In this document: positions 47,504 through 63,619 of the stretch, piece by piece
Layout of the letters: each line of letters opens with the position of its first letter
Numbering within the stretch: the stretch's first letter is position 1
Assembly (NCBI RefSeq): GCF_000013725.1
Contig: NC_007955.1
Location: 651,579-715,578, forward strand
From: Methanococcoides burtonii DSM 6242
GTDB taxonomy: Archaea > Halobacteriota > Methanosarcinia > Methanosarcinales > Methanosarcinaceae
Direction of reading: 5' to 3'
Length of the DNA stretch: 64,000 nt
The notes under the pieces: generated by a model
Told to the model about the DNA's origin: nothing
The model's input: the letters and a program-made list of their open reading frames with translations, nothing else
Databases searched by the model: none
Translations under genes and position numbers: made by a program

Positions 47504-47513
47504 CCTTAAATAC
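47504..47513 (+). promoter_or_regulatory. TATA-like promoter of the leader/acetolactate synthase unit
   Basis: CCTTAAATAC lies about 28 bases before the ATG of the leader ORF, the usual distance from an archaeal TATA box to the transcription start. The mRNA should therefore begin at or just before that ATG. Confidence 0.5.
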
Positions 47514-47536
47514 CACCTCCGCCTTCAGTCACTATA

Positions 47537-47605
47537 ATGTCATACTTTACCACAACTCACAGTTTACGCAATGTGCCTGTAGTAGTGGTAGTGTTATTAG
47601 CTTGA
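47537..47605 (+). CDS. Val/Leu-rich leader peptide upstream of the acetolactate synthase gene
   Basis: A 22-codon ORF with no other sensible role. It begins MSYFTTTHSLR and ends NVPVVVVVLLA, so five valine codons and two leucine codons stand in a row just before the TGA. There is no ribosome binding site, but the predicted transcription start is only a few bases upstream, so leaderless translation is expected. The stop codon lies inside a stem-loop, and the acetolactate synthase gene starts 93 bases further on. The layout is that of the bacterial ilvB leader, in which charged tRNA-Val and tRNA-Leu control readthrough. This interpretation is inference. Confidence 0.6.
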   Translation: MSYFTTTHSLRNVPVVVVVLLA

Positions 47606-47640
47606 GCAAAGAAATATTCTGGCTCAAGTGCACTGTTTTT
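47601..47640 (+). terminator. Candidate attenuator stem-loop over the leader stop codon
   Basis: A perfect 7-bp inverted repeat, CTTGAGC (47601-47607) and GCTCAAG (47622-47628), with a 14-base loop, is followed by a small palindrome AGTGCACT and a T5 run at 47636-47640. The leader TGA (47603-47605) is in the left arm, so translation must affect folding. Confidence 0.5.
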
Positions 47641-47698
47641 GGTTAATTTACTGATTAGTGTATCCTGTGCTGGATGTTTCTTTCCACGGTGATCTGAA

Positions 47699-49423
47699 AT
47701 GGAAGAAATGAATGGAGCAGAAGTCCTTGTAAAATGTCTGGAAGACCTTGGGGTCAAACATATCTTTGGATATACGGGAGCGGCAATACTTCCGGTATTC
47801 CACGCCCTTGAAAAGAGCGACATTAAGATAGTAGTAAACTCCAACGAACAGTCCTGTGCATTTAGTGCAGCAGGATACTCCCGTTCAAGCAATGAGGTCG
47901 GTGTAGCCATAGTCACATCAGGACCTGCAATCACCAACACTCTCACAAGCGTTGCTGATGCCTATGGTGACAGCATTCCTTTGCTTGTATTTGCAGGTCA
48001 GGTTCCAGAGCACAAGATAGGCACCGACTCATTCCAGCATATCAATGTCAAAGGCATCTTCGGGGATGCAGCTAAAAAAGTAATTCAACTATCCAATGGC
48101 GACGACATTGAATCCATAGTCAAGGATGCCTACTACTTTGCAAGATCAGGAAAACCCGGGCCTGTTGTCATAGACGTTCCTCTGGATAAACAGCAGAAGC
48201 TCCATGAATATATGGGCATGAATATCCTGAGATTCGAGGAAAGCTATCACGATGACCGCCATCTCAGTGATGAGCAATGCGAAGAATTTTTCCAGCTTCT
48301 GACAAAATCCAGCAAACCTCTGCTTTATCTTGGAGGCGGTCTCAACTCTGAAGCAGGAAGCTATGCCATCAGGGAGCTTAACGAGCAGCTTGGAATTCCT
48401 TCAGTTAATACACTAATGGCAAAGGGTGTAGTTGACGAAAGAGATGACATCAACATGGGAATGTTGGGAATGTTCGGCACTCCATACGCTAACATGCTAA
48501 TTCAGGAAAACGACTTCTTCTTCGCCATTGGAGTAAGATGGGATGACAGGGTTGCTGAAAAGGTAGGTTTTGCGATAGGCACCGATGTAGCCTACATTGA
48601 CATCAATCCCGAAAAGATGCACCAGATAAAGATCGAGCGTGCTCCAAAATTCACATTCATAGGCGATGCACCAACAGCTATTCGTGACCTCATGAGTTAT
48701 GCTAAAAAGCAAAATATCAGTCTGGATATCAAACAGTGGCAGGAGCGTGCCAGATTCCTTAAAAACTCATGGCCTCTGGACTATAATCGTGAATCTGAAT
48801 ACATCCAATCTGCTGAGGTAATGGCTCTGCTGGCAAAGTACATTGATGAGAATACAAGGATAACAACTGGTGTCGGTAATCAGCAAATGCTTGCAGCTCA
48901 ACATCTATCCATGCAAAAGGAAAAGTCATTCATGAGCTCCGGATCATTTGGAACAATGGGATTCTCCATGCCAGCGGCCATTGGTGTTCACTATGCGAAC
49001 CCTAATGCAAGAGTTATATCAATAGACGGTGACGGCAGCCTGAAAATGAATCTTGGGGAACTCCACACTATAGCTTCCCTTGATATGCCTGTCAAGATAC
49101 TCCTGCTAAATAACCAAAGCGATGGTATGGTTCAAAATCTTCAGGATGCAAATTATGATGGGATTAGGACAGCTACCCAGCGGCAAAAGGACGTTCATTT
49201 TGCAGATATTGCAAACTCCTTTGGCTTTAATTATGCAAAAAGGATCAGCGACAGAAATGATTTGAAACAGGGACTTGAAGATTTCCTAAACTCAGAAGGA
49301 CCGTGTTTCCTGGAAGTTTGCACAGACCGGGAAGAAGTTCTCTATCCGAAAGTTCCAGCAGGTGGAGCTTATAAGGACATGATACTGGGACCATACATAA
49401 AACAGATAGAAATAAATGATTAA
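47699..49423 (+). CDS. ilvB: Acetolactate synthase-like TPP enzyme, large subunit
   Basis: A 574-residue thiamine-diphosphate enzyme. The N-terminal domain carries the catalytic Glu in VNSNEQSCAFSAAGYSR and SGPAITNTLTSVADAYGDSIPLLVF; the C-terminal domain has the TPP/Mg motif GDGSLKMNLGELHTIASLDMPVKILLLNNQ. It should join two pyruvates (or pyruvate and 2-oxobutyrate) at the start of Val/Leu/Ile synthesis. The ribosome binding site is GGTGATCT. No ilvN or ilvC is next to it, so it may be a paralogue; other TPP enzymes of this family cannot be excluded. The Val/Leu-coding leader upstream supports a branched-chain role. Confidence 0.85.
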   Translation: MEEMNGAEVLVKCLEDLGVKHIFGYTGAAILPVFHALEKSDIKIVVNSNEQSCAFSAAGYSRSSNEVGVAIVTSGPAITNTLTSVADAYGDSIPLLVFAGQVPEHKIGTDSFQHINVKGIFGDAAKKVIQLSNGDDIESIVKDAYYFARSGKPGPVVIDVPLDKQQKLHEYMGMNILRFEESYHDDRHLSDEQCEEFFQLLTKSSKPLLYLGGGLNSEAGSYAIRELNEQLGIPSVNTLMAKGVVDERDDINMGMLGMFGTPYANMLIQENDFFFAIGVRWDDRVAEKVGFAIGTDVAYIDINPEKMHQIKIERAPKFTFIGDAPTAIRDLMSYAKKQNISLDIKQWQERARFLKNSWPLDYNRESEYIQSAEVMALLAKYIDENTRITTGVGNQQMLAAQHLSMQKEKSFMSSGSFGTMGFSMPAAIGVHYANPNARVISIDGDGSLKMNLGELHTIASLDMPVKILLLNNQSDGMVQNLQDANYDGIRTATQRQKDVHFADIANSFGFNYAKRISDRNDLKQGLEDFLNSEGPCFLEVCTDREEVLYPKVPAGGAYKDMILGPYIKQIEIND

Positions 49424-49591: not shown

Positions 49592-50474
49592 ACACTACTC
49601 GTTCCTCATGGGAGACGGGCTCTACATGCAGCACACGCAGGATTTAGACCCTCTTAAAATTCTGCCCACAGGCAAGCCGACACCTCAGCGCATGAGCGAA
49701 ATGTGAGATTCTATCTTGAATTAATGGGCCGATAGCCCGCGGGATACAATCCCCTCTACATATTCCCAAAGACCTATCGATGATGTCAAGTAGGACACTT
49801 GAGCTACTCAGACCGAATAACATCGCGATGAAACACTTACTAGCTGTCCATCTGCATCTGAGATCCCTAGCTCTATCAAAGTAATGTACGTCATCCACTC
49901 TTATTACACGCCATCTGCGATTATTACACATACCAGCATGCTCAGCTCGACTTAAAGAAGTCCCACGCTCAAGAAAGAAGCAATGGATACAGTTCCAAGG
50001 CCTTATGTAGCGTATTGTTCATTTTATTCGTACAACACGACCCAGTACATTGCATAACTGCTTCTCTTAGGAACTGCCACTAAACGCAGGTCTGCGTTGA
50101 GTGTGATGCTAGCACCCTTTCCCCAAAGATGCTGCAATGTATTCAGAACTAGGCAGTTGAGTGGAGGACAAATTGAATTTTAAATAACAGCTGATAACTC
50201 GCATCAAAATACCAGAGGTGTGTATGTATTATTGTTGTTACCCCATCCCTTTGCTTTTCTGATTTTTGAAAAACGACTTTGAGATTTTGATTACCTAGTA
50301 TTCACGTCATGGTGCAGTATGGTTATTTCAGCATCTCGTGTTGTAAGATTCCAAGCCTGTTCTGTAAACCTGTACTGGCTTGGCTTTAGGGCGGTATAAA
50401 AGGAGCTTTATCAGGGATATATTCAACACTACTAAAAAAGTAATCAAACAGTGGGTAATTATAAAATTATTTAG
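49592..50474. other. Noncoding stretch with unusual composition and many short hairpins
   Basis: About 880 bases without a gene. From about 49600 to 50170 the base composition is more balanced than the AT-rich spacers elsewhere, all frames are full of stops, and several perfect short stems occur: TCAAGT/ACTTGA around 49788-49804, GGGC/GCCC around 49728-49740 and AACGCA/TGCGTT around 50085-50100. A 95-codon minus-strand ORF (49644-49931) has no ribosome binding site or recognisable features. It may be a structured RNA or old foreign DNA. I cannot match it to a known RNA class. Confidence 0.4.
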
Positions 50475-50559
50475 TGCGAGGGAAGGGATTCGAACCCTTG
50501 AAAACCTTCGTTATCAGATCTTAAGTCTGACGCCTTTGACCTGGCTGGGCGACCCTCGC
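50475..50559 (-). tRNA. tRNA-Leu(TAA)
   Basis: On the minus strand an acceptor stem GCGAGGG/CCCTCGC with discriminator A, a D arm with CCCAGCCAGGTCAAAGGC, an anticodon stem TCAGA/TCTGA around loop CTTAAGA (anticodon TAA), a long variable arm, and the T arm with GGGTTCGAATCCC. The long variable arm marks a type II tRNA. CCA is not encoded. Confidence 0.95.
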
Positions 50560-57547: not shown

Positions 57548-58021
57548 ATTCCCTTCATTGTTTTGTTGAAAATATTGGCTCTGTAGAAATCCTCATCCAA
57601 ACTAAAAACACAGTCTGATGAACTTATCAAGATTGTGTAATATCACTTTGAACTTTACTTCTTTTACTTGATTTCTATACTTTCTCGCACGTAAGTTTTC
57701 TCCATACTTTCTTTTCAAAACCGAAAACATCGTTTCACTCAAATTTCGCATAGAGTATATCTTACTATCGAATTCCTGTAACATTTTCTTACGATATCTT
57801 CCTTTGATTCGCTTTCGTTCACGTTGTCTCAATGGAACAATTGCTATTGATCCAAGTTTTCAATTCGTGTATTTTTCAGAATCATAGGCTTTATCCATTA
57901 TATAATATCTTGATCTCCTATTGTGATGACATTGCGATAGCAATGTCTGTCGGCTAAGTCAGAGAGATTACTCCCTCTTTCTCGCCTAAGAACCGTGCGT
58001 GAGACTTTCACCTCACACAGC

Positions 58022-59752
58022 TCAAGCATCTCTTAACCCTTGTCGGGCAACAGTTATTTTTGGATTATTTGCATGATATTGTCTATGACAATATACATGT
58101 GCATAAACTAAGTTTGTTATTCCATTATCGTCATGATTTCCATTTTTATGATGTAAAGGGCGTTCCTCTCCACCGTTGTTAATGTCAATCAATAGATTAC
58201 AAAACGGACATTTGCCTTTTTGATTCTTCCATACGGTTTTAAACTTTCCTAATAACTTTTTAGAACCTTGATTGAGCTTGCGTTCAACAAAGTATTCGGT
58301 GTCAGTGTAAGGGTTCTTATCCAGTTTTATTTGTGGGTTTCGAACTATCATTTTATCTGACATTAATTTAAGTTGGTTTTTCATTGTTGAAAATACCCAT
58401 TTCCTCGTTCCTTTGGGATGCCAGTATTTGTGTGCAATCCAAGTTCTTGATTTCATGGGGTGTCTTCTCTTAGCCCATTTCCAAAGTATATTCCATATCT
58501 TAAAATCAATTAAGGAGAATGTTTCTTTGGAAGCCACTCCTTGATGATAATTTGACCATCCAGTTATGATAGGGTTAAGTTTAGAGATTAAATCTTCTTG
58601 TGTCCAAGTTTTTCCATCTTTGATAGTATTACTGATTTTTTCAGTTACTTTCTTGATAGATTTCTTAGACGGTTTTATGAGAAGTTTTCCTTTGTATTTT
58701 CTGACATTCCAACCTAAAAAGTCAAAACCATCATCGATGTGAGTAATAAGGGTTTTTTCATCAGATAGTTCTAAACCTCTATCCGTTAGGAAATTCTTAA
58801 TCAATTCTTTTGCTTCTTCTGCTATTTCTTTAGTCTTTGCAGTAACAATAAAATCATCTGCGTATCGCACAAAATTAACTTTGTGTTTTGCACGTTGACG
58901 AGTTGTTATTTTACCGCTTACACCTCGATGATATTTGTCAGCCAATACACCTTCAATTCCATCTAAGGTCATGTTGGCTAATATTGGTGATATAATACCG
59001 CCTTGTGGTGTTCCTGCTTTCGTTGGAAATAGAGAATTTTCATAAACAAATCCTGCTTTGAGGAATTGTTTAAGAATTGATTTATCCATTGGGATATTGT
59101 CAATTAACCATTGGTGACTGATGTTGTCGAAACAACCTTTAATATCGCCTTCCAGTATACATTGTGCAGAATCCTTTTTGCTTATTGTTCCAAAAATTTG
59201 ACTGCAAGCATCATGTGTACTTCTGAATTTTCTGAATCCAAAAGAACGTTTATCTGCTGTTACTTCTGCAATGGGGTCAAGTGCTAATGCATATAATGCT
59301 TGCATAGCTCTATCGTACATGGTCGGGATACCTAAAGGTCGCTTCTTATCAGAACCATATTTCTCAATAAAGATTCTTTTTAATGGTTTTGCCTTATATC
59401 TTTTATCAGATAGACTTCGAGCCGCATTCACTTTGGAAACTGGTGTTGACCAGAATTCTCCATCGATTCCTGCTGTTCTTCTACCCTTATTTCGAATAAC
59501 CTTTCTGACAGCTAACAGTTTAGCATAGTGAGAATGGGTTAGCAAATAACTTAGTCTTTTTACTAAATTCCAATTTTTGTTAATAACTGCTTTCGTAATT
59601 CTGACTTGTATTCTATTAACATGTGATTCAACGGAACTCCAATTGATGAAATTCCAGTTGAGCATATCTGTAAGCTTCTCACCATTTAATTCAGCATGAC
59701 CACTAAGGGCTTCTGCTTCATTATTTGGTGTATTTGAAATTCTTACATTCAT
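58022..59752 (-). CDS. ltrA: Group II intron reverse transcriptase/maturase with HNH domain
   Basis: A 576-residue protein from the ATG at 59752 (coordinates given high to low; span 58022-59752), chosen because GAAGG lies seven bases upstream; an ATG at 59800 is in frame. RT domains are visible: GDIKGCFDNISHQWL, TPQGGIISPILANMTLDG and the catalytic VRYADDFIVTA. Then comes the maturase X domain (LISKLNPIITGWSNYHQ) and a C-terminal HNH endonuclease with CPFC, PLHHKNGNHDDNGITNLVYAHVYCHRQYH. Full length, so splicing and mobility may still work. Confidence 0.93.
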   Translation of the reverse strand: MNVRISNTPNNEAEALSGHAELNGEKLTDMLNWNFINWSSVESHVNRIQVRITKAVINKNWNLVKRLSYLLTHSHYAKLLAVRKVIRNKGRRTAGIDGEFWSTPVSKVNAARSLSDKRYKAKPLKRIFIEKYGSDKKRPLGIPTMYDRAMQALYALALDPIAEVTADKRSFGFRKFRSTHDACSQIFGTISKKDSAQCILEGDIKGCFDNISHQWLIDNIPMDKSILKQFLKAGFVYENSLFPTKAGTPQGGIISPILANMTLDGIEGVLADKYHRGVSGKITTRQRAKHKVNFVRYADDFIVTAKTKEIAEEAKELIKNFLTDRGLELSDEKTLITHIDDGFDFLGWNVRKYKGKLLIKPSKKSIKKVTEKISNTIKDGKTWTQEDLISKLNPIITGWSNYHQGVASKETFSLIDFKIWNILWKWAKRRHPMKSRTWIAHKYWHPKGTRKWVFSTMKNQLKLMSDKMIVRNPQIKLDKNPYTDTEYFVERKLNQGSKKLLGKFKTVWKNQKGKCPFCNLLIDINNGGEERPLHHKNGNHDDNGITNLVYAHVYCHRQYHANNPKITVARQGLRDA

Positions 59753-60138
59753 AGTTATACCTTCATTCATACGTTTTGATACCATAGAGTAAGTCTGCAT
59801 CCTTTCGGATTAGGGCAAATTCTGAACCCCTATATAATTCATTACAAATTATCATTCGCTTTCTACTCCTTTCCTTTACCCTCTATGTCATTGTCCTTCC
59901 TTACGGAATTCCTACCCCGAAGGGAACATATAGGGCTTACCAAGTTCTATAACATGAATAATTGCGAATACCTTAGAAGCCATCTATAAACCGAGAATCA
60001 TATGTCCATTTCCTATAATGTATGCAAAACCATTATAGTCTGATTCTATACCTTTTTAGTTCAAGCGTATCAATCTAGTTTCGCTTGTTGCAATTCACGA
60101 TTCTTACAATGGTTCACTTTTACGTTCTTCTTAGTATT

Positions 60139-60967
60139 GTCGGCTAAGTCAGAGGGATTACTCCCTCTTTCTCGCCTAAGAACTGTACGTGAAAGTTTTC
60201 TTTCATACAGCTCAAGCATCTCATAACCTTTTCAGGCAACAGTTATTGTTTTTGGAATTAATTGCAAATTCCAATTTTCTTCAATAACTGCCTTCGTAAT
60301 CCTGACTTGTAGCCTATTAACATGTGTTACATGTCTGTAAGTTTCTCATCGTTAAGTTCAGCATGTCCACTAAACAGTGTTTTTGCTTCATCTTTTGATG
60401 TATTTGAATAGCTTACATTCATAGGTCATACCTTCCTTCTTACGTTTTGATACCATAGAGTAAGTCTGCATCCTTTCGGATTAGGGCAAATTTTGAACCC
60501 TTATACACACCATTACAGTTTGTCATTCGCTTTCTACTCCTTTCCTCTACCCTCTATGTCATCGTCATTCTTTGCAGGATTCCTACCCCGAAGGGAACAT
60601 ATAGGGCTTACCAAGTTCTATAACATGAATAATTGCGAAGACCTTAGAAGCCATCTATAAACCGAGAATCATGTGTCCATTTCCCATAATGTGATAAGAG
60701 CCATAATGGTCGGATTCTGTACCTTTTGGTTCAAGCGTAATCAATCTAATTTCGCTTGTTCTGCTTTACGATTCTTACAATGGTTCAACTTTCGTTTCTT
60801 CTTAGTGTTCTTATCCTAGTGGATGTTTCGAATTAGACTTTCGAGATTCTCCACATTGTCCTATGAGCTTCATACCCCAACGTTACCATTGGCGCGTGTC
60901 ATAGTAGGATTAACCCAAATGGAAGGGATAGCGTTGCCGCAATTCATGTTATAACTTCTTGTCGCAC
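60139..60967 (-). mobile_element. Inner group II intron lacking a full ORF
   Basis: An 829-base intron relative inside the outer one. It starts GTGCGACAAGAAG at 60967 and ends TTAGCCGAC at 60139. Domain V (60180-60213) differs from the outer one by paired changes that keep the stem. Between them are only scraps of the RT gene (SNTSKDEAKTLFSGHAELN near 60370 and the last codons near 60240). It is therefore ORF-less and would depend on a maturase in trans. Confidence 0.82.
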
Positions 60968-61125
60968 CTTATCCTAGCAGATGATTCAGATTAGACTTCC
61001 GAATTTCTCCACATTGTCCTATGAGCTTTACACCCCAACGTTACCATTGACGCATATCATAGTAGGATTATCCCAAATGGAAGGGATAGCGTTGCCGCAA
61101 TTCATGTTTTAGCTTCTTGTCGCAC
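60810..61125 (-). repeat. Two 158-bp direct copies of the intron 5' region
   Basis: 60968-61125 and 60810-60967 are closely similar units of exactly 158 bases, each beginning GTGCGACAAG and ending CTAGGATAAG on the minus strand. The first belongs to the outer intron and the second to the inner one; the pair results from insertion of one intron behind base 158 of the other. Confidence 0.85.
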
Positions 61126-62783: not shown

Positions 62784-62993
62784 TATTCATGTTTTTGAGT
62801 ACGAGGTTGCACACGTTTTTGAAACAGAGCACAACGGAAAACCTTTGTTTGTGATCTCTTTAGACGAAGACTTTGATAGCAGTGTAGTTGTACAACCCAA
62901 CACTAACTCAGATCTCGAAAAACGCCTAGCTTCGCTGGAACAAAGGATCATTGAATTAGAAAAACCGCCATGCATCGACTCAGAAATGCCAGA
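62778..62993 (+). pseudogene. Gene fragment ending at tRNA-Val
   Basis: Directly after the YjdF-like gene a different frame shows coding character: ENDIHVFEYEVAHVFETEHNGKPLFVISLDEDFDSSVVVQ, then a coiled segment LEKRLASLEQRIIELEK. There is no start codon, and the frame runs straight into the tRNA-Val gene without its own stop. It looks like the remnant of a gene cut at both ends. Family not recognised. Confidence 0.45.
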
Positions 62994-63067
62994 TGGGCCC
63001 GCGGAGATTCGAACTCCGGAGCTCTGCCGTGTGAAGGCAACGTCATAACCAGCTAGACCACGAGCCC
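62994..63067 (-). tRNA. tRNA-Val(CAC)
   Basis: A 74-base tRNA on the minus strand: acceptor GGGCTCG, D arm with TGGTCTAGCTGGTTATGACG, anticodon stem around loop TTCACAC (anticodon CAC), T arm with GGAGTTCGAATCTCC, discriminator A. CCA is not encoded. Confidence 0.95.
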
Positions 63068-63619
63068 ATATTGAAATAAAATTGTACCTGAGGAAATATT
63101 AACCGATTTTCAGGTGCTATAGGGCTTAAATAGAGTTGATGGGCTATAAGTTTAACGGGGGGCTGTGGTAGATTTATTAAAGTATTAGTATTTATATAAT
63201 CAATATATGAAAGAACCTGCCTATATATAGAAAGGTTTAAGTATTATTCATGTATTTAGAGAATTGTACATTGGACGAGAACTTTGGGCAGTTTCTTGAA
63301 TCAGATAAGTTACTACCCCTTGAACCACACACAAACCACCATACTCCCTTCCAGTCCAAAGTTCTCGCTGGTGGACATTCAACTCCTCCTTCGTGTTTTG
63401 AGGCAGGGTGTAAACTCGACCTTCAATTTCGTCCTTTTCAATTTGACATTTATTCTTAATATCATCTTATTTGATTGGTATTGAAAATAAGCTTTGTAAG
63501 GATAGAGCAATATCAGATGTGGAATTTGAAACACATGGCATGATATTTCATGCTAAAAAAAGAAAATCTATCAAATGAAATTAGAGGACAGGACGATCTT
63601 CAAGAAAAAGTGAGGAGCC
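63068..63619. other. Intergenic stretch, possible hairpin
   Basis: About 550 bases without a supported gene. A pair of inverted repeats, CGAGAACTTTGG near 63278 and CCAAAGTTCTCG near 63356, could form a long-range stem. Two overlapping ORFs (63250-63484) lack ribosome binding sites. Confidence 0.35.

Follow-up and report, generated by a model that had tools for sequence, protein, structure and literature searches.

Introduction

Textbooks present leader-peptide attenuation as a bacterial mechanism that rests on coupled translation and on hairpin terminators. The closest described counterpart of the element reported here belongs to the Corynebacterium glutamicum ilvBNC operon where, as in the present case, a leaderless leader with a run of valine codons lies upstream of an acetolactate synthase (ALS) gene (PMC11857589). 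The C. glutamicum leader reads MTIIRLVVVTARRLP, and transcription starts one nucleotide from its ATG (PMC11857589). Both elements possess successive competing hairpins, and the antiterminator and the OFF hairpin have a short boundary segment in common (PMC11857589). Likewise, actinobacterial candidate leaders upstream of ilvB are short ORFs with runs of Ile, Val or Leu codons that overlap a hairpin with a U-run behind it (PMC1262725), as found here.

Coupled transcription-translation is established in archaea (review PMC7858274, citing French 2007), and Ribo-seq of M. mazei reports sORFs in 5′ UTRs (PMC11456600). Upstream ORFs are said to act in archaea, with no case given in the passage concerned of PMC10219788. 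Methanococcus depends on poly-U and aCPSF1 for termination (PMC10450193), and polarity in archaea is probably due to FttA (PMC12548453). Since archaeal transcription is coupled to translation yet ends at U-tracts via aCPSF1/FttA, it was open whether archaea attenuate in this manner. A literature search, which covered few subscription journals and thus leaves novelty unproven, found no archaeal leader-peptide attenuator; one of this kind has apparently not been described before. The candidate analysed here, located in a stretch of 64,000 nucleotides (the window) from a Methanosarcinaceae genome of 2.58 Mb, offers a compact (about 160 nt), conserved and testable case.

The leader and its downstream gene

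The locus comprises the following features outside the RNA folds:

47506..47512, + strand: TATA box TTAAATA of the leader promoter, its first base 31 nt 5′ of the leader ATG
47537..47605, + strand: leader ORF of 22 codons, MSYFTTTHSLRNVPVVVVVLLA and stop, conserved in 45/45 homologues
47579..47599, + strand: control codons, five Val (GTA GTA GTG GTA GTG) and two Leu (TTA TTA)
47688..47694, + strand: Shine-Dalgarno (SD) sequence GGTGATC of the ALS gene, 7 nt 3′ of helix C (see below)
47699..49423, + strand: ALS large-subunit-like gene, 574 aa, with TIGR00118, Pfam and PDB matches

A first-pass annotation based on the letters of the window had pointed to a 22-codon ORF with five Val and two Leu codons near its 3′ end, a TATA box upstream of it and a gap of 93 bases to an ALS-like gene, all of which are present. 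The ORF reads ATG TCA TAC TTT ACC ACA ACT CAC AGT TTA CGC AAT GTG CCT GTA GTA GTG GTA GTG TTA TTA GCT TGA, the Val codons at 47579–47593 being followed by two Leu codons, one Ala codon and the TGA, from which 93 nt lead to the ATG of the ALS-like gene at 47699.

The encoded protein contains three TPP-enzyme Pfam domains, and its nearest solved structures in the PDB are ALS/AHAS catalytic subunits; its TIGR00118 score of 500 bits lies under the curated cut-off of 538 bits. The product is thus described as ALS-like, with a putative substrate assignment. The closest named relative on the basis of this protein is Methanococcoides alaskense (98% identical). No ilvN gene was found near the leader-linked ALS, neither here nor in 22 relatives. 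The host genome also carries a canonical ilvB-ilvN-ilvC operon ca. 32 kb away, on which no leader was seen. Most homologues have a GGAG-type SD at the site matching that of the ALS gene. Glu codon 3 of ALS is nearly always GAA in the homologues, GAG being almost as common elsewhere in these genes; this bias may stem either from base pairing to the 5′ UTR or from a requirement that the start be weakly structured.

Elsewhere in the window, genes for tRNA-Leu(TAA) and tRNA-Val(CAC) are located at 50474–50559 (−) and 62992–63068 (−), the former about 1 kb 3′ of ALS. Both tRNAs read codons of the leader type, and their proximity is probably a coincidence. Rfam also gave several group II intron matches at 57949–61088 (−).

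Conservation of the leader in the Methanosarcinaceae

Of 112 Methanosarcinaceae genomes, 44 possess the stand-alone ALS according to protein searches, which detected it in none of the other families of the order. Comparison of 45 distinct regions upstream of ALS, drawn from six genera of the family, was a test set beforehand for the idea of a leader device, and the idea survived it: the Val/Leu run is kept in relatives, and all 45 regions contain a leader ORF whose TGA lies inside the same stem (stem B, see below). The leader ends in a Val run, Leu and Ala. Val occupies codons −4, −5 and −6 in 43, 44 and 45 of the 45 leaders, respectively, and codon −3 is Leu in 42, specified by CTA, TTA, CTG or CTC. 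The choice of codons is narrow, as GTA and GTG make up 301 of the 318 leader Val codons (95% vs 48% in the genes of the window) and TTA and CTA 93 of the 109 Leu codons (85% vs 22%). A chance ORF in an ordinary 5′ UTR, although short ORFs are common in any such region, is refuted by this conservation across six genera and is virtually excluded; moreover, the run of five Val is unique to this leader among the 1028 short ATG ORFs of the window, and none of 7660 short ORFs in simulated windows contained five consecutive Val.

The leaders comprise 22, 23, 24, 25, 27 or 30 codons, their differences being always whole codons, and the lengths of the region after the ORF show no preference for any of the three frames (17/15/13). 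A TATA-like box is found 28–33 nt 5′ of the leader ATG in 44/45 loci despite a drifting sequence in between. Whole-codon lengths, synonymous Leu codons and a fixed TATA–ATG spacing form the pattern which a translated leaderless leader peptide predicts. As judged from this comparison, selection maintains the leader as a coding sequence rich in Val and Leu; the transcript very probably begins at its ATG, and translation probably proceeds from a leaderless mRNA.

The constraint on the coding sequence and the conserved C-terminal arrangement of Val run, Leu, any residue and Ala would also suit an ORF that acts through its product, be it a small functional protein or a nascent arrest peptide, and not as a sensor of tRNA charging. 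However, the residue at −2 is not fixed (N, F, H, S, V or L), the N-terminal half is variable in both sequence and length, and the conserved residues are the products of the very pathway served by the downstream enzyme. Known arrest peptides do not resemble such a drifting leader of variable length, and we regard this explanation as very unlikely.

Three homologous loci deserve separate mention. L041 (2830–4719) resides on a contig binned as Woesearchaeota and combines a full leader with an ALS of 67% identity; its occurrence reflects either mis-binning or transfer. In a Methanohalophilus genome (L037, 3001–4713) the ALS frame is broken by one TAG, which represents either pyrrolysine or a mutation. 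In Methanohalobium (L046, 3001–4703; L081) ALS is a pseudogene, with the ATG followed by TAA and by several stops; its leader ORF and its stem B have stayed intact.

Competing RNA folds

The leader RNA is more stable than its shuffled versions (z = −2.4) and may adopt the following elements:

47547..47591, + strand: hairpin A, TTACCAC (47547–47553) with GTGGTAG of the Val codons (47585–47591); RNAalifold consensus of 45 sequences
47601..47628, + strand: hairpin B, CTTGAGC (47601–47607) with GCTCAAG (47622–47628); RNAalifold consensus of 45 sequences
47636..47640, + strand: T5 run, within the apical loop of E, starting 8 nt past stem B
47611..47680, + strand: helix C, GAAAT in the loop of B (47611–47615) with GTTTC (47676–47680)
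47619..47673, + strand: helix D, CTGGC (47619–47623) with GCTGG (47669–47673), its GC being common to the 3′ arm of B
47628..47663, + strand: helix E, GTGCACT (47628–47634) with AGTGTAT (47657–47663)

Hairpin B accommodates the leader TGA within its 7-bp stem, as the first-pass annotation had stated, and the association of a Val/Leu-rich leader peptide upstream of an archaeal ALS with a stop codon in a conserved stem is supported by all 45 homologues. The annotation had also placed a T5 run behind the stem; both are present, but they are not adjacent, being separated by 7 nt (TGCACTG). Nearly all homologues carry four to six consecutive T here (L027 has TTGTT), possibly a pause site of RNA polymerase or a termination site of aCPSF1/FttA. 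Stem B is almost invariant (99.4% of cells paired), with one compensatory change (GAAC:GTTC in L061). The inverted repeat CTTGAGC/GCTCAAG was also considered as a DNA operator and rejected, because the length of the loop between its arms differs among relatives (14–22 nt).

Helices C, D and E were first recognized by alignment by hand and by folding of single members; their joint pairing statistics, like the paired fraction given for B, were derived from a plain MAFFT alignment of 22 members. Taken together, 96.2% of their cells are paired and nine pairs show changes on both sides in 17 cells; none of 500 shuffles was as good, and slid controls reached at most 48% pairing. Helix C combines 13 substitutions with no broken pair and is compensated in L027 (GGAAC:GTTCC), L048 (AGAAC:GTTCT), and L037 and L040 (GAAAT:ATTTC); its 3′ strand precedes the ALS ATG by ca. 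16–24 nt. Helix D varies among relatives as CTGGC:GCCGG, CTGGC:GCCAG and CGGGC:GCCTG. Broken cells amount to 5/205 in D, 14/287 in E and 4/287 in hairpin A. When substitutions were placed randomly along the ALS gene tree, this tree-aware null gave p = 0.002 for C, 0.006 for D and 0.002 for C, D and E jointly, compared with 0.15 for B and with non-significant values for A (0.20) and for E alone (0.30), all of which serve as guides only because the helices were picked with sight of the data. An R-scape-like test of single-pair covariation found no significant base pair, owing to the strong conservation of the element. In the divergent L041, B is kept and the C/D helix is built of quite different letters, GAGAUAGUCCGA : UCGGCCUAUUUC. 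A curated structural alignment omits the Methanohalophilus-like L013 and L079 and the Methanohalobium locus L046 because of insertions.

Owing to their shared bases, B and C/D are mutually exclusive. Covariation is better for C/D/E than for B, and the comparative data support C/D/E as the antagonist fold, i.e. the pairing which the first-pass annotation had been unable to assign. In models, the SD is unpaired with a probability of 0.53 when B is masked and of 0.71 when B is formed, the masked value being the lower one in 38 of 44 cases; the AUG shows the opposite trend (see below).

The strong conservation and structure of the post-ORF region, together with the pairing of the Val-run nucleotides in hairpin A, might alternatively indicate a riboswitch-like or protein-binding cis-regulatory RNA in which the reading frame is incidental or merely helps the RNA to unfold. 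We consider this highly improbable, given that whole-codon length changes are confined to the ORF, Leu −3 is encoded synonymously and the TATA–ATG spacing is constant. Furthermore, Rfam offers no family at its gathering threshold (best match in the region 11.9 bits vs a gathering score of 40), and a Val/Leu/Ile-rich leader without the present RNA fold precedes ilvB in another class (see below).

A covariance model applied to 238 genomes of the class recovered the ALS leader from 44 genomes; beyond these matches it gave three at other sites and a weak one inside a coding region. The three extra copies belong to Methanolobus-like genomes and are situated upstream of a small membrane-protein gene, 0.8–4.3 kb 5′ of the ALS leader:

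L100, 1209–1341 (+): extra element copy
L101, 2885–3018 (−): extra element copy
L102, 3223–3379 (−): extra element copy

Two of them lack the ATG (ATA instead), and the third combines a broken B stem with a deletion. By this comparison, the copies away from ALS are decayed and the element is restricted to ALS.

Proposed mechanism

The locus shows two hallmarks of a leader-peptide attenuator, an ORF rich in codons for the end products and mutually exclusive folds, one of which overlaps the leader stop. On this basis, we consider it probable that the stand-alone ALS of the Methanosarcinaceae is governed by a leaderless, translation-dependent attenuator sensing Val and Leu. We infer that valine is sensed and the fold chosen through the position of the ribosome on the leader, which would select either B or C/D/E. 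With an ample supply of Val-tRNA (and Leu-tRNA), the ribosome would reach the TGA and cover the 5′ arm of B, whereupon C/D/E would form against the ribosome-binding site and keep ALS low. When valine is short, the ribosome would stall in the Val run, B would form first and prevent C/D/E, and ALS would be made. The footprint of a ribosome terminating at the TGA covers the 5′ arm of B; a ribosome waiting further 5′, on Val codons −8 to −6, leaves this arm exposed. The layout matches a classical attenuator, B corresponding to the 2:3 hairpin and C/D/E to the 3:4 hairpin. Stem B is more likely a “protector” hairpin than a terminator, and C/D/E the OFF fold; we hold this direction of the switch with fair confidence.

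The suggested likeness to the attenuation device of ilvBN stood as far as the conserved Val/Leu leader and the competing folds are concerned, and was not supported for stem B and T5 as a bacterial-type terminator, since the T-run is 8 nt off, an early Val stall leaves B free and C/D/E covaries better. A G+C-rich hairpin directly followed by a U-run, the mark of a bacterial-type transcription attenuator, is found at neither place, as the U5 begins 8 nt after B and C/D/E is followed by the SD and not by U. The end of C/D/E beside the SD, with no U-run behind it, argues for a block of translation initiation, which we slightly favour as the output. Premature termination at the conserved U-run is possible, although rather doubtful; a purely translational switch does not explain the conserved U-run.

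The wiring might also be the opposite one. B and the U-run would then constitute the OFF element (a terminator or pause), or B would allow the 5′ UTR to sequester the ALS start, and a ribosome at the leader end would open B and turn ALS on. Several aspects suit this alternative: with the polymerase positioned on the conserved U-run, ca. 13 nt separate B from the RNA 3′ end, a ribosome halted at codon −4 or −3 would already occupy part of B, and termination in methanogens needs just a poly-U tract and aCPSF1 (PMC10450193). In addition, folding predicts that GTTTCTTT pairs with the ALS start codons when B is formed, and the modelled accessibility of the AUG, opposite to that of the SD, is 0.43 with B and 0.55 with B masked. 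However, this B-dependent pairing is lost where helix C changes, no compensatory tracking being seen in L008, L027, L048 and L041, and it is retained only as part of this rival reading. The U-run, moreover, begins 8 nt after stem B. Since B stays available when the ribosome halts at the first Val codons (−8, −10), valine shortage would turn ALS off under the opposite wiring, and we consider this wiring unlikely. In the preferred scenario, with B as the protector, the leader may replace the allosteric feedback that IlvN gives elsewhere, because no small subunit is adjacent to this ALS.

A second archaeal case

Upstream regions of canonical ilvB genes were scanned across the phylum for TATA-positioned leaders. 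In family f10, which belongs to a different class of this phylum, a TATA-positioned leader rich in Val, Leu and Ile precedes ilvB in 25 of 27 loci, the other two being unreadable by the scan script; the same criterion gave two stray matches in 60 loci of other families. Examples are MQENFPVVVVGLVILF, MLNLPVVVVC and MSATLELNNFGVVLGVVLIVVVVLLL. The leaders begin 28–31 nt past the TATA motif, L109 being read from an in-frame ATG further upstream, and 12–40 nt separate their stop from ilvB. A control scan of trpE revealed no consistent Trp leader in 30 archaeal loci. In L122, L127, L128 and L138 the leader is followed by a G+C hairpin and U5–U6, close to a bacterial-style terminator.

The f10 leaders, as read from the genomes, constitute an independent second case which supports archaeal leader attenuation and suggests that leader peptides of archaea form a wider class so far missing from annotations. 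On balance, we think that archaea do sense branched-chain aminoacyl-tRNA by leader-peptide attenuation, on leaderless mRNAs and without bacterial-type terminators, and that this device arose at least twice, before the stand-alone ALS of the Methanosarcinaceae, where it would replace the missing small subunit, and before canonical ilvB in another class of the phylum.

Comparison with known attenuators

The enteric ilvB/ilvG, trp and his attenuators resemble the present element in that control codons precede a stop located at or near the switch segment and that exclusive 2:3 and 3:4 folds compete; they differ by their classic intrinsic terminator, Shine-Dalgarno-led leader and bacterial polymerase. 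The C. glutamicum ilvBNC element is likewise bacterial, and its OFF hairpin is a demonstrated intrinsic terminator, whereas the OFF candidate described here adjoins the SD and has no U-run (PMC11857589). The host of the Methanosarcinaceae element furthermore uses archaeal promoters and termination by aCPSF1/FttA. The actinobacterial ilvB leaders are also bacterial; the part of PMC1262725 devoted to them takes the hairpin as a terminator, leaves the mode of regulation unsettled and reports no second, long-range exclusive hairpin. In its output, the proposed switch comes close to translational attenuation of the ermC type, where a stalled leader ribosome decides whether the SD of the next gene is free; the ermC-type stall, however, depends on a drug-dependent arrest peptide, whereas the signal proposed here is the supply of Val- and Leu-tRNA (PMC10219788).
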